Assembly (NCBI GenBank): GCA_903910555.1
Contig: CAIVZZ010000001.1
Location: 124,001-188,000 of the forward strand
DNA: 64,000 bases
Reading direction: 5' to 3'
Origin: an uncultured Gemmatimonadota bacterium
GTDB taxonomy: Bacteria > Gemmatimonadota > Gemmatimonadetes > Gemmatimonadales > Gemmatimonadaceae
Shown: positions 19,466 through 23,881 of the stretch, piece after piece
How the letters are laid out: every line of letters begins with the position of its first letter
Numbering within the stretch: the stretch's first letter is position 1
The notes under the pieces: generated by a model
The model's input: the letters and a program-made list of their open reading frames with translations, nothing else
What the model was told of the DNA's origin: nothing
The model's database searches: none
Program-made: the position numbers and the translations under genes

Positions 19466-22132
19466 TTAGTCAGCCCGCATCGCGATCGCCGGATCGATGT
19501 GCGCGGCACGCGATGCCGGCACAGAAGACGCGATCAGGGCGACCACTCCGAGCAGAATCGTAACGGCGGCATATGTGACGGGATCCGTCGCCTTCACATT
19601 GAATAGCAGTGCGCCCATCAGCTGCGTGAGCGCGAGCGCTCCGGCGATGCCGACGCCGACGCCAACTGCGACCATCGCCACGCCCTCCCGAACGACCATC
19701 TGTACCAGGCGCGATGGCGTCGCGCCGAGGGCCATGCGGATTCCGAGTTCGCGCGACCGCTGACTCACGAGATACGCGATAACTCCGTAGATCCCGATCG
19801 CAGAGAGCACAATCGCGACAATCGAAAACGCCGTGAGAAGCACCATATAAAAGCGCGGTTGCGCCACCGATTCGGCGAGCACGGCATCGAGCGTTTTGAT
19901 CTGCGCCACGGCAAGATCGGGATCAAGCTGCTTGATCGCACTGCGCGCGTCTGCCACCACGGCCTGCGGATCGCGGGTCGTGTGCAGCACGACGTTCATG
20001 TTCGACATCGGCCATTGATCGTATGGCGCCCAGAACTGCGGCAGCGTGGCGTTGGCGAGCGACGATTGTTTTACATCCGCGACGATTCCGACGATGTCGC
20101 CCTCGAGCGGACCTGCTTCGCGGTTCACGCCGAAGATGACGTGTTTGCCAATCGGGTCCTCGCCCGGGAAAAACTTCTTCGCTGCGGTTTCGGTGAGCAG
20201 CAGAACCTTCGCGCCGCCCGCGCGATCGAGATCGGTGAAGCCGCGCCCTTTCACAATTCTGATTCCCATCGTCGGGAAATAATCGGGCGTCGCAACGCGG
20301 AGCTCTGCGTCCGGCTCATCTGACGGCTTGAGCGGCGGACGGCCTGCAATAGTGAATCTGAATCCGAAGCCGAAGTTCGTGAGCGGCATGCCAAAGCCGG
20401 CACCTGCCGATTGCACGCCCGGCAATGCGCGCATCCGTTCCATTACGCGGTTCAAGAACGCTGCCTGCAGCGCCGGCGTCTGATACTTGGCCGTCGGGAG
20501 GCTCAGCGCGAACGAAATCGAGCTCTCTGTGCGGAAACCGGGGTCCACGGACATCAACGAGTTGAAACTGCGAATGAGCAAACCCGCGCCGGCAAGCAGC
20601 ATCACACTCAGCGCGACTTCCGCCACCACCAGCACCCGCCGCGCCGCATGACTGCCCGCGCGCTGTCCGCCGCTCCGGCCGGCTTCGCGCAGCGTTTTCG
20701 CAATGTCCGGACGAACCATCTGATACGCCGGCACCAATCCGAAGATCGCACCAGTGACGGTCGCGATCACCAGCGTGAACGCGAGAACCGTCGCGTCGAC
20801 ATGAATTGCGTCGAGGCGCGGAATGCTCGCCGGCGCTGCCGCAACCAGCAGCCGCGTCCCGACGATCGCGAGCAAGAATCCCGCAGCGCCGCCGAGCAGT
20901 GAAAGCACCATACTCTCCGTCACCAACTGACGGATCAACCGGCCGCGCCCCGCGCCGAGTGCCGTGCGGACCGCGAGTTCGCCCGCGCGCGCCACACCGC
21001 GAACGAGCAGGAGGTTCGCAACATTCGCGCATGCGATGAGCAACACGAATGCAACACCGCCGAGGAGAATCAACAGCGGACGACGCAAACTGCCGGTGAT
21101 CCATTCCTGAAGCGGCACGACGACGGCGCCGACTTTATCGTTGACGTTCGGATAGTCTTTCGCGAGACGCGCCGCAATCGTACTCATGTCCGCGCTCGCG
21201 GTTGCGAGCGTCACGTCGGGCTTCAGTCGCGCGACGACATTCAGATAGACCGCACCGCGACTCTGCGCGAGTTTTGCCGGATCGAAGGTGAAGGGATACC
21301 AGAGCAGTGAGTTCGCGGGCCACGATGACGCGGCGGGAATAATTCCCGCGACGAGATACCGCTCGTTGTCGAGCGTGATCATCCTGCCGACGAGCGCGGT
21401 GTCGCTGCCGAATCGCGTACGCCAGAGCGTTTCGCTCATCAGCACCGATTTCGTTCCTTGCCAAACGGAATCCTCTGGCGTGAACGCCGACCGTCCGTGG
21501 AGCGCCTTCACGCCGAGGATGGAAAAGAAGTCCGCGCCCACATCAAATCCGCGGATTTTCTCGGGATCGCCGGATCCGGTGAGCACGGCGGAGTGTCCGG
21601 AGACGACGGACATCGAAGTGAACGATTTGTTCTGCGCGCGCCAATCGTAGGCGTTGGCCGGCGATGTCGGGCTGGGTTTCGGATTTCCGTACGTCGCCGC
21701 AACCATCACGACGCGATCAGGCTGGGCGAACGGCAATGGCAAGAGCAGGATTCCGCGCACGACGCTGAAGATCGCGGTGTTTGCGCCAATTCCCAGAGCG
21801 AGCGTGAGGATCGCCACCATTGCGAAGCCGGGCGCTTTGCGCAGGCTGCGCAGTGCGTAAGCGATGTCCTGCATGAGTTCCGTCCAGAAATCGCTGCGCA
21901 TGATTCGTTTCTCGCGCCGCTCGTCGGTGCGGCGGCAATAAGTTTGCGCGTCATCGACATCGCCGAACTGCCGGCGGGCCTCGGCGCGCGCTGCTTCAGG
22001 ATCCCATCCGCGCGCGATCAACTCGCTCGCGCGCATGTCCAGGTGAAACGCAAACTCCTCCTCGACGCCGGCGGCCGCCCTTTTGAACAGCGGAAGGCGG
22101 AACGCCCGGCGAAACGCGGAGTTACCGGACAC
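19466..22132 (-). CDS. ADOP-type ABC permease, PadR-linked
   Basis: About 888 residues. It has the extra N-terminal cytosolic helical domain typical of PadR-linked ADOPs (VEEEFAFHLDMRASELIARG, EARRQFGDVDDAQTYC), then MQDIAYALRSLRKAPGF and TM1. The two MacB/FtsX halves follow, ending SVPASRAAHIDPAIAMR. I place the start at GTG 22132, one base after the PadR stop; an ATG at 22177 would overlap the padR gene by 44 bp and is the alternative. The membrane topology should match the other ADOPs here. The PadR protein probably represses both genes. The transported substrate or sensed signal is not known. Confidence 0.85.
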   Translation of the reverse strand: MSGNSAFRRAFRLPLFKRAAAGVEEEFAFHLDMRASELIARGWDPEAARAEARRQFGDVDDAQTYCRRTDERREKRIMRSDFWTELMQDIAYALRSLRKAPGFAMVAILTLALGIGANTAIFSVVRGILLLPLPFAQPDRVVMVAATYGNPKPSPTSPANAYDWRAQNKSFTSMSVVSGHSAVLTGSGDPEKIRGFDVGADFFSILGVKALHGRSAFTPEDSVWQGTKSVLMSETLWRTRFGSDTALVGRMITLDNERYLVAGIIPAASSWPANSLLWYPFTFDPAKLAQSRGAVYLNVVARLKPDVTLATASADMSTIAARLAKDYPNVNDKVGAVVVPLQEWITGSLRRPLLILLGGVAFVLLIACANVANLLLVRGVARAGELAVRTALGAGRGRLIRQLVTESMVLSLLGGAAGFLLAIVGTRLLVAAAPASIPRLDAIHVDATVLAFTLVIATVTGAIFGLVPAYQMVRPDIAKTLREAGRSGGQRAGSHAARRVLVVAEVALSVMLLAGAGLLIRSFNSLMSVDPGFRTESSISFALSLPTAKYQTPALQAAFLNRVMERMRALPGVQSAGAGFGMPLTNFGFGFRFTIAGRPPLKPSDEPDAELRVATPDYFPTMGIRIVKGRGFTDLDRAGGAKVLLLTETAAKKFFPGEDPIGKHVIFGVNREAGPLEGDIVGIVADVKQSSLANATLPQFWAPYDQWPMSNMNVVLHTTRDPQAVVADARSAIKQLDPDLAVAQIKTLDAVLAESVAQPRFYMVLLTAFSIVAIVLSAIGIYGVIAYLVSQRSRELGIRMALGATPSRLVQMVVREGVAMVAVGVGVGIAGALALTQLMGALLFNVKATDPVTYAAVTILLGVVALIASSVPASRAAHIDPAIAMRAD

Positions 22133-22133
22133 T

Positions 22134-22466
22134 TTAGACGGTCCGGAGCACGCGGGTGACCGCAAGCGCGAAATCATGGAACGCCGCGCGTTCGTCGCGG
22201 AGCTGGCGGCGGCCGATCGTGGTCAGACGGTAGTACTTCGCGCGGCGGTTATTTTCGGACATTCCCCACTCGCTCTCGATCGCGCCCTGCTCTTCAAGCC
22301 GGTGCAGCGATTTATAGAGCGCCGCGTCGTCGATCGTGAGCGTGCCGCCGGAGCGATCGCGGAGCCAGTTGGAAATGGCATAGCCGTGCATCGGCTTCCA
22401 GGTGAGCGTCTTCAGGACGAGGACGTTCAGCGTGCCGTAGATGAGGTCCGACGGAGTTTTTGTCAT
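22134..22466 (-). CDS. PadR-family transcriptional regulator
   Basis: A 110-residue winged-helix protein. The family signature is clear: LIYGTLNVLVLKTLTWKPMHGYAI, then DDAALYKSLHRLEEQGAIESEW and NRRAKYYRLTTIGRRQL. It belongs to the short PadR class that accompanies ADOP permeases. Its stop is immediately before the ADOP gene, so they are co-transcribed. Two palindromes lie just upstream of its ATG (22469-22496 and 22500-22521) and are good candidates for an autoregulatory operator. Confidence 0.93.
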   Translation of the reverse strand: MTKTPSDLIYGTLNVLVLKTLTWKPMHGYAISNWLRDRSGGTLTIDDAALYKSLHRLEEQGAIESEWGMSENNRRAKYYRLTTIGRRQLRDERAAFHDFALAVTRVLRTV

Positions 22467-22468
22467 CG

Positions 22469-22496
22469 CCTATTCGACACCGGGGGTGCGAATAGG
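22469..22496. promoter_or_regulatory. Stem-loop directly upstream of padR
   Basis: CCTATTCG / CGAATAGG form an 8-bp stem which continues as CACC / GGTG after one bulged A, closing on a 3-nt loop. It ends two bases before the padR ATG, so in RNA it would occlude the start region. It may be an operator, a translational control hairpin, or a terminator of the upstream M20 gene. Confidence 0.45.
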
Positions 22497-22499
22497 GTT

Positions 22500-22521
22500 T
22501 ACCTGTTCCACTGAACAGGTA
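22500..22521. promoter_or_regulatory. 22-bp palindrome, candidate PadR operator
   Basis: TACCTGTTC-CACT-GAACAGGTA is a perfect 9-bp inverted repeat with a 4-bp spacer, 33 bp upstream of padR and 7 bp past the M20 peptidase stop. It does not match the classical ATGT-N8-ACAT PadR site, but its symmetry and place suggest a protein-binding site. Confidence 0.5.
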
Positions 22522-22528
22522 GGTGGAG

Positions 22529-23881
22529 CTATGGCGTTGTCGTCTTCTGCTGCGACAGGCGGAGCATCAAAAGTGCAGCCCGCTTCGTCTGCGACGGCAG
22601 CATCCGGAGATCCGCCGTTTCCTTCTCACTATGGTCGTCGTGGCCGGAGAGACCGATGCCATCGATCACCATCGGTACGATGTTCGCGATAAAGGCCACA
22701 TCTGCGGCGCCCGCCTTCGACGGGTCGACCGCCGTTACCGCGCCCGCACCAAGATCACGGCTCGCCTGATCGTACATGGCGAGAATCCTGCGGTTGCCAT
22801 CCGTTGGCGCCATCGGCGGATAGCCATCGTCGAATGTGATTTCGCCGCCGGTCTTCGGCAGGTGGTGCGAAACAATGTCGCGCATCGCCTTCTCCGTTTT
22901 CGCGAGCTGCTCCGGCGACAGCGTCCGCATGTCGCCGGTCACGGTCATCTTGCCGGCGATCACATTGTTCTTTCCGCTCGCGGAGCCGGCTGTGTTGGTG
23001 CTGTCTGCATTGACGAGCGTTCCGCCGAGCGCGAGGCCGGGGCTAAATGCGAGATACGGCTCACCCGAAAGCTTCTGATAAAACTCGGTGAGAATTCTGG
23101 ACATCTCGAAAATCGCGCCCGCTCCGATATCGTCGTGAAAAATCTGCGACGCGTGCCCGGGATAGCCCGTCGTCGTGAGTTTCCATTCGGTGGCAGAGCG
23201 GCGCGAGATCACCGCCGATTTTGGATCGCCCGCGCCATCTTCGAATCCCATAGCAGCGCTCGCGCCTGCCGCTGCGTCAATTAACGCTTTGCGTGAGAGT
23301 GCGAGCGGACGGCCGGCATCTTCCTCATCGCCGTCGAACACGGCGGTCACGTTCATTTTCTCCAGCTGCCCCGCGTCTTTCAGCGCGCGCAGTGCGAAGA
23401 GCATCACCACATCCCCGCCCTTCATGTCGATGACCGCAGGACCCGTCGCCGTCGAATCATTGAGGCGAATAAACTTCTGAAACGGACTCGACGGTTCGAA
23501 CACGGTGTCGAGGTGGCCGATCAGCAAAATCTTCGGACCGGGCCCCGCATGCTCGGCAATCAGGTGACCCGCGCGCTTGAACGACGCGCCATCCGCCCAT
23601 CGAACCTTGAATCCGAGCGCCTCCAGCTGAGGTCGCAGCACATCCGCCACTGCGCGAACGCCCGCGAGATTCATGGTGCCGCTGTTGATGTTCACAATCC
23701 GCTCGAGTAGTGCCAGCGCCTCAGCGTTGTGCGAGTCAACAGCGCGAACCGCCGCTCGTTCGGCAGCGGCAAGCGGCAGCGCCGGCGACCCCTGTGCAAC
23801 AGCGATAGCCGGGCGCGCGTATCCAGTCGCGAGCAGGGCACACGCAGATATGAATCGTGCCGATCGAAATGAAAGAATCAT
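22529..23881 (-). CDS. Exported M20-family metallopeptidase (glutamate carboxypeptidase-like)
   Basis: 450 residues with a signal peptide. The dinuclear zinc-site motifs are present in order: GHLDTVFE (first His and Asp), IDMKGGD (bridging Asp), DGDEEDAG (catalytic Glu and zinc Glu), and a late His in GHDDHSEKE. A dimerisation domain lies between them (GYPGHASQIF). It resembles CPG2-type carboxypeptidases that release C-terminal glutamate or other residues. It fits the window's other exported peptidases. The gene is divergent from the large BNR gene at 23984 across 102 bp. No convincing ribosome site was seen before the ATG at 23881. Confidence 0.9.
   Translation of the reverse strand: MILSFRSARFISACALLATGYARPAIAVAQGSPALPLAAAERAAVRAVDSHNAEALALLERIVNINSGTMNLAGVRAVADVLRPQLEALGFKVRWADGASFKRAGHLIAEHAGPGPKILLIGHLDTVFEPSSPFQKFIRLNDSTATGPAVIDMKGGDVVMLFALRALKDAGQLEKMNVTAVFDGDEEDAGRPLALSRKALIDAAAGASAAMGFEDGAGDPKSAVISRRSATEWKLTTTGYPGHASQIFHDDIGAGAIFEMSRILTEFYQKLSGEPYLAFSPGLALGGTLVNADSTNTAGSASGKNNVIAGKMTVTGDMRTLSPEQLAKTEKAMRDIVSHHLPKTGGEITFDDGYPPMAPTDGNRRILAMYDQASRDLGAGAVTAVDPSKAGAADVAFIANIVPMVIDGIGLSGHDDHSEKETADLRMLPSQTKRAALLMLRLSQQKTTTP

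Follow-up and report, generated by a model that had tools for sequence, protein, structure and literature searches.

PadR regulators and their described operators

The closest described systems are LmrR and the PadR-s2 regulators of Bacillus cereus. In the accessible sections of the respective papers these are presented as winged helix-turn-helix dimers located next to a transporter, and LmrR is autoregulated (PMC3506622, PMC4534193). As far as the available sources go, the PadR operators described so far consist of ATGT/ACAT repeats separated by approximately 8-10, whereas the element reported here is a 25-bp palindrome of another sequence. The authors of PMC3506622 modelled helix alpha3 in the major groove. 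According to the available part of that paper, the alpha3 motif is EGT(L/I)YPxLxRLE. Upon alignment to LmrR it lines up with DAALYKSLHRLE of the PadR protein analyzed in this study, and residues 47-52 of this protein correspond to the EGTLYP start of the helix. In the same text, common motifs were taken to suggest one operator for the subfamily, yet the limited conservation of alpha3 was said to indicate differing operators. Our sequence comparisons fit the latter remark.

A recognition code has been proposed for another family. In the LacI family footprinting of local sites linked two regulator residues with two operator bases, convergent cases included (PMC2978694, available part). That code, derived from local autoregulation, resembles the residue-base code proposed below but concerns LacI and not PadR proteins. 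Snowprint predicts the operators of regulators from sequence (PMC10858194), and the accessible part of that publication made no mention of PadRs linked to ADOP permeases. Our literature search, with most subscription papers outside its coverage, retrieved no operator or signal for ADOP-linked PadRs and no recognition code for the PadR family, nor, judged by paper titles, a PadR operator from Gemmatimonadetes.

Genetic composition of the padR-ADOP locus

The window, i.e. the whole stretch of 64,000 nucleotides analyzed here, belongs to a genome of 3.2 Mb in 32 contigs. Three genes on its minus strand are of concern. An M20 metallopeptidase gene (22529..23881) is located upstream of padR (22134..22466), and the gene for an ADOP permease (19466..22177) lies directly downstream, its ORF overlapping padR by 44 nt. 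The PadR protein has 110 aa and carries the helix residues D47, A48, A49, L50, Y51 and K52. Both proteins score above the cut-offs of the TIGR03433/TIGR03434 pairs of NCBIfam, PadR with 121.8 bits (TIGR03433, padR_acidobact; cut-off 101.8) and ADOP with 935.3 bits (TIGR03434; cut-off 622.3). The gap from the M20 stop codon to the padR ATG comprises 62 nt (22467-22528), and the stop codon itself (TAG, 22531-22529) has one base in common with the predicted operator described below.

The closest PadR orthologs within 179 genomes of the family were L132 (genome G036) and L133 (genome G034) with 86% and 83% identity, respectively. Both are accompanied by an ADOP of about 70% identity. A match to the M20 gene was absent from the 287 nt (L132) and 1500 nt (L133) searched before padR.

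An initial annotation had placed two adjacent palindromes between the M20 gene and padR, and both are indeed found inside the gap. The first, here named IR1, is a perfect 9-bp inverted repeat with a loop of 4 nt, TACCTGTTC-N4-GAACAGGTA (22500-22508 and 22513-22521), and is even-centred at 22510.5. The second, here referred to as stem 2, is formed by CCTATTCG and CGAATAGG on the minus strand (22469-22476 and 22489-22496) and extended inward by CACC/GGTG; it folds into 12 pairs with one bulged base and ends 2 nt before the padR ATG. It had also been stated that neither of them is a textbook PadR site. This holds true, as ATGT-N8-ACAT does not occur in the gap; with up to one mismatch allowed there were 10 matches in the window and none in 22467-22531.

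In total, 22 inverted repeats with 9 perfect pairs and a loop of 3-12 were present in the window compared to 10, 5, 6, 8 and 4 in five Markov shuffles. This is about one per 3 kb, which makes a repeat inside a 62-nt gap unusual, though not an extreme case. IR1 with its N4 loop occurred once in the window at up to three mismatches (mean of 100 shuffles 0.00).

A palindrome shifted against IR1 is conserved in the orthologs

Alignment of the upstream regions of the window, L132 and L133 revealed an unbroken block of 23 nt, GCTCCACCTACCTGTTCAGTGGA (22529-22507), which is invariant in all three. Upstream of this block the three agreed only sparsely. The arms GCTCCAC and GTGGA(A or G)C around the block constitute an odd-centred, imperfect palindrome of 25 bp, GCTCCACCTACC-T-GTTCAGTGGAAC, which spans 22505..22529 on the minus strand and is the predicted PadR operator. 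Its positions p1 to p12 correspond to 22529-22518, the centre to 22517 and the other half to 22516-22505. The predicted operator overlaps IR1 by 17 bp, with the register shifted by 6.5 bp.

Allowing up to three mismatches, the 25-mer was found in 3 of the 179 family genomes, each time in front of the orthologous padR; this ortholog group consists of three sequences only. L132 carries the 25-mer unchanged, and the single change in L133 adds one pair, giving 9 of 12 instead of 8. The symmetry of the window site itself is weak: 8 of 12 pairs are attained by 26-30% of shuffled regions, and IR1 is more symmetrical. The site scored 17.0 bits with the matrix derived from that half of the data to which it does not belong, and this half may contain its orthologs. 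Within the own genome the class pattern had two exact matches, one at this site and one ahead of the closest paralog (L012/L038), and a third place had two mismatches.

Taken from these alignments, the shifted palindrome is probably the docking site of the adjoining PadR. The initial observation is real, and the register of the 9-bp repeat was misread. What stands of the operator first suspected in IR1 is that the gap very probably contains a PadR operator of non-textbook type, with the conserved element displaced from the perfect repeat. On this reading, IR1 would result from pairing between the inner part of the operator and bases that directly flank it.

An odd-centred motif precedes ADOP-linked padR genes

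The family was analyzed in a discovery set of 199 distinct PadR genes (171 with an ADOP match directly downstream; effective size approximately 30) and in a new set of 80 further PadR genes (77 with ADOP). The latter originated from the phylum of the window, partly from genomes already used, and had a median best identity to the discovery set of 67.7%. In the discovery set, 62 of 171 upstream regions (null 5.4%) had an odd-centred 25-mer in which 9 or more of the 12 pairs were complementary, and so did 28 of 74 in the new set (null 4.1%). Even-centred ones were little or not enriched (13/171, null 5.1%; 9/74, null 7.3%). Seven of 28 PadRs without a detected ADOP had an odd-centred 25-mer as well. 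Coding segments reached the same symmetry in 28/193 and 25/199 cases, i.e. above the upstream shuffles. Compared to their own shuffles, however, coding controls showed no excess (30/246, null 11.2%; 33/279, null 11.5%), which answers the doubt raised by the palindromes in coding segments.

A palindromic matrix was then cross-validated by training on one half and application to the other. Because the halves share related paralogs, kinship still enters into this test. Sites of at least 10 bits were found in 190 of 248 ADOP-linked padR regions (null 1.0%), with the family consensus CTTCCCCTAAACAGTTTAGGGGAAG. When a single one of the two matrices was applied, the motif was absent from all 245 ADOP-coding segments and present in 11 of 31 PadRs lacking a detected ADOP, and 70 of the 248 regions held two sites of at least 8 bits. 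An earlier matrix built from 147 upstream regions had left a mainly Acidobacteriota branch without a site; when 25 nt of the gene were included, several members of this branch turned out to have the operator over the start codon. The window site agrees with the family operator, being an odd-centred 25-bp palindrome that matches the matrix and precedes the padR start.

Five of the 11 ADOP-linked PadRs of the own genome reached 8 bits and six remained below. Upstream of padR the loci L003 and L006 of this genome had long inverted repeats of another type which the family matrix does not match, namely AGGGTGTAG...CTACACCCT in L003 and a palindrome before the start, GAGGGGTATAGACAG-N20-CTGTCTATACCCCTC, in L006. 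A third locus, L013, encodes a divergent PadR (30% identical to that of the window). Here, ACTATAGCCA...TGGCTATAGT surrounds TTGACA and a -10-like TATAGT, which is another arrangement of an operator on a promoter.

The number of paralogs is high. Several genomes of the host's family contained at least 26 copies of ADOP-linked PadRs. Separately, the Gemmatimonadota genomes G117, G072 and G342 gave 62-132 PadR candidates at first look, 15 of which were scored in each, pointing to a very large set of paralogs.

Placement of the predicted operators relative to promoter-like sequence and start codon

The largest group among the 190 sites (93) ends 0-12 nt ahead of the start codon; a further 15 end at 13-30 nt, 64 at 31-60 nt and 5 beyond 60 nt, and the remaining 13 overlap the start codon. 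Judged by the surrounding sequence, most family operators would cover the -35, the -10/start region or the start codon. Among sites of at least 8 bits, TTG occupied p8-p10 in 54 of 69 sites at 31-60 nt and in none of 98 sites at 0-12 nt. The 64 aligned sites of at least 10 bits at 31-60 nt had TTGACA at p8-p13, A at p32 and T at p36, a pattern that reads as a -35/-10 pair with a spacer of 17 nt. For the 98 sites at 0-12 nt, TTGA or TTGC began 26-28 nt ahead of the operator 57 times, and a corresponding -10 would thus sit on the edge of the operator. The position-wise -10 signal was weak in this group (0.36-0.54 bits, 93 sites).

In eleven cases the site extends over the first 8 nt of the gene, and nine of the respective proteins begin with Met-Gly. 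In L072, L088, L100, L116 and others the operator TTATGGGAGA lies over ATG GGA GA, straddling the start codon. The Met-Gly start of the straddled proteins is apparently forced by the operator sequence.

The predicted operator of the window is located 38 nt before the ATG, those of the orthologs 45 and 52 nt before it. Of 20 other tabulated members of the AALYK class, 18 had the operator 2-9 nt before the ATG. A consensus sigma-70 promoter was not found at the window padR. In the promoter frame of the family the window scored 2.1 and the orthologs, at their best shift, 2.0 (L132) and 4.8 (L133), with the 95% point of shuffles at 2.5. By eye, the orthologs have -35/-10-like pairs just upstream (TTGCGT-17-TAGCTT and TTGCAA-17-TATGTT), and the matching stretch of the window is coding sequence of M20. 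The padR gene of the window may be driven either by a weak promoter inside M20 or by read-through from M20.

In L133 an in-frame ATG was noticed 48 nt before the assigned padR start and 4 nt after the operator. This is a usual distance within the family, and the true start may therefore be located there.

Covariation of helix residues and operator bases

Residues and bases were counted in half-sites of 207 sites of at least 8 bits. Residue 49 showed the clearest relation to p10, where Ala went along with A (221/246), Ser with G (117/124), Thr with G (14/14) and Pro with A (24/28). Of the 23 Ala49 half-sites with G at p10, 12 are TTG half-sites, i.e. the -35. For residue 52, p11 was C with Lys (74/78) and Gln (38/56), A with Thr (49/52), Val (18/20) and Pro (115/196), and G with Leu (7/8). 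For residue 47, p6 was A with Gly (24/24), T with Pro (12/12) and C with Glu (170/176) and Asp (122/160), 36 of the 160 Asp half-sites having A instead. Gln47 was mixed (18 C, 12 T), against the predicted T. With its preference for A or G at p10 the matrix may conceal C or T at this position; it takes no account of residue 49, however.

The three rules were fixed, with other orders and phyla in view, before new loci were fetched; they were applied to those 57 of 74 new PadRs whose site, chosen by symmetry, had at least 8 of 12 pairs. The rule for residue 49 predicted p10 in 78 of 106 half-sites (maximum over 500 shuffles 69), that for residue 52 predicted p11 in 58 of 112 (maximum 58) and that for residue 47 predicted p6 in 69 of 108 (maximum 67); these shuffles ignore relatedness. 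The new set contained no Gln or Pro at residue 47, while Pro49 gave A at p10 in 2 of 4 and Pro52 gave A at p11 in 18 of 44.

Tree-independent switches of residue 49 were concordant in 9 of 9 cases with matrix-chosen sites, and with symmetry-chosen sites 8 were concordant with one tie. For residue 52, all 5 pairs were concordant with matrix-chosen sites; with symmetry-chosen sites the single pair of K/Q vs T/V was concordant, and P vs others gave two concordant pairs and three ties at p10. Residue 47 gave three concordant pairs and one tie (matrix-chosen) or three concordant and one discordant (symmetry-chosen). Among 350 residue-position tests 49/p10 ranked first (z 3.00), closely followed by 31/p6 (z 2.83), and hence the pair test alone does not single out 49/p10. 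Wing residue 74 had come up with p2 in the first scan; it is invariant in the alignment of 18 rows and no relation is claimed.

Altogether, p10 follows helix residue 49 in these comparisons, and p11 and p6 track residues 52 and 47 less surely. The window itself agrees in part. With A49, p10 is A in both halves as predicted; with K52, for which C is expected at p11, one half has C and the other A; with D47, p6 should be C but is A in both halves, so the residue-47 rule is broken here.

Alternative explanations and possible RNA roles

A role of IR1 itself as operator, for PadR or for a different regulator, would be suggested by its perfect symmetry over 9 bp and by the uniqueness of its core, which has no second copy at up to two mismatches in the own genome (five other places have three). 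It is also nearly retained in the orthologs, with one mismatch in L133 and two in L132. All three substitutions, however, break the symmetry of the DNA. The conservation to be expected of TACCTGTTC-N4-GAACAGGTA was not seen: it was exact in 1 of 179 family genomes, with one mismatch in one more, and its five exact occurrences among 342 fetched loci are all this same locus. Considering further the scant enrichment of even-centred palindromes upstream of PadR-ADOP genes, we regard IR1 as an operator in its own right as very improbable. Alternatively, the palindromes could represent a terminator or the intergenic remnant of a repetitive mobile element, since two hairpins lie in a 62-nt gap behind M20. 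No terminator-like match was obtained in 22400-22700, though, and within the mismatches permitted neither IR1 nor stem 2 had further copies in the genome, which makes this the least likely of the explanations considered.

The three ortholog changes in IR1 are A to G opposite U, and the stem therefore still folds via G-U pairs: the same 22-nt stretch gave -10.7, -10.0 and -10.7 kcal/mol in the three orthologs, with 8 of 9 pairs formed, and all of them retain RGGT directly past the operator. Alongside the overlapping operator, IR1 might accordingly form a hairpin close to the 5' end of the padR-ADOP transcript that affects stability or access to the start. Against this speak the number of sequences (three), the location of most of the stem inside the operator and the best fold of a longer stretch in L133, which pairs the operator arms instead, so that we judge such a hairpin unlikely. 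The start-hiding role proposed for the stem nearest the ATG is doubtful too, but deserves slightly more credit. Stem 2, which would cover the padR start region in the mRNA and lower translation, is a strong hairpin in the window (-20 kcal/mol over a 61-nt stretch, z = -3.58), and the RNA stretch with both stems reached z = -4.60. On the other hand, stem 2 was not seen in L132 and L133 (z +0.61 and +1.62), is a single copy in the genome at up to three mismatches and had no Rfam match at E 1 or better. With its absence from the closest orthologs, the role is conceivable only as a feature of the lineage of the window.

Proposed model and significance

Our preferred explanation is that the gap holds the operator of the adjacent PadR, which would repress its own padR-ADOP operon by occlusion; based on sequence comparison, we consider this very likely. 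A PadR dimer would bind the palindrome at 22505-22529. Position p8 and its mirror are 10 bp apart, and two recognition helices would thus enter major grooves one turn apart. Bound PadR would occlude the promoter or the first transcribed bases and keep padR-ADOP repressed, until a signal would release PadR and derepress the operon. The explanation is based on the conservation of the element, the family-wide motif, its placement on promoter-like sequence in the family and the covariation with PadR residues; the location of the window's own promoter is one we infer.

Most likely, the operator is of a sequence type for which we found no description, and helix residues and operator bases change together across the family. 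We lean, with some reservation, towards a broader reading as well. Some Gemmatimonadota genomes carry at least two dozen ADOP-linked PadR paralogs, and these may form a natural set of separate repressor-operator pairs under an alpha3 code of 49/p10, 52/p11 and 47/p6, and the Met-Gly start of one branch may be dictated by its straddling operator. A predicted operator for each pair together with a residue-base rule opens the way to direct binding tests and to regulon prediction. These small PadR proteins would then use operators unlike the ATGT/ACAT repeats.
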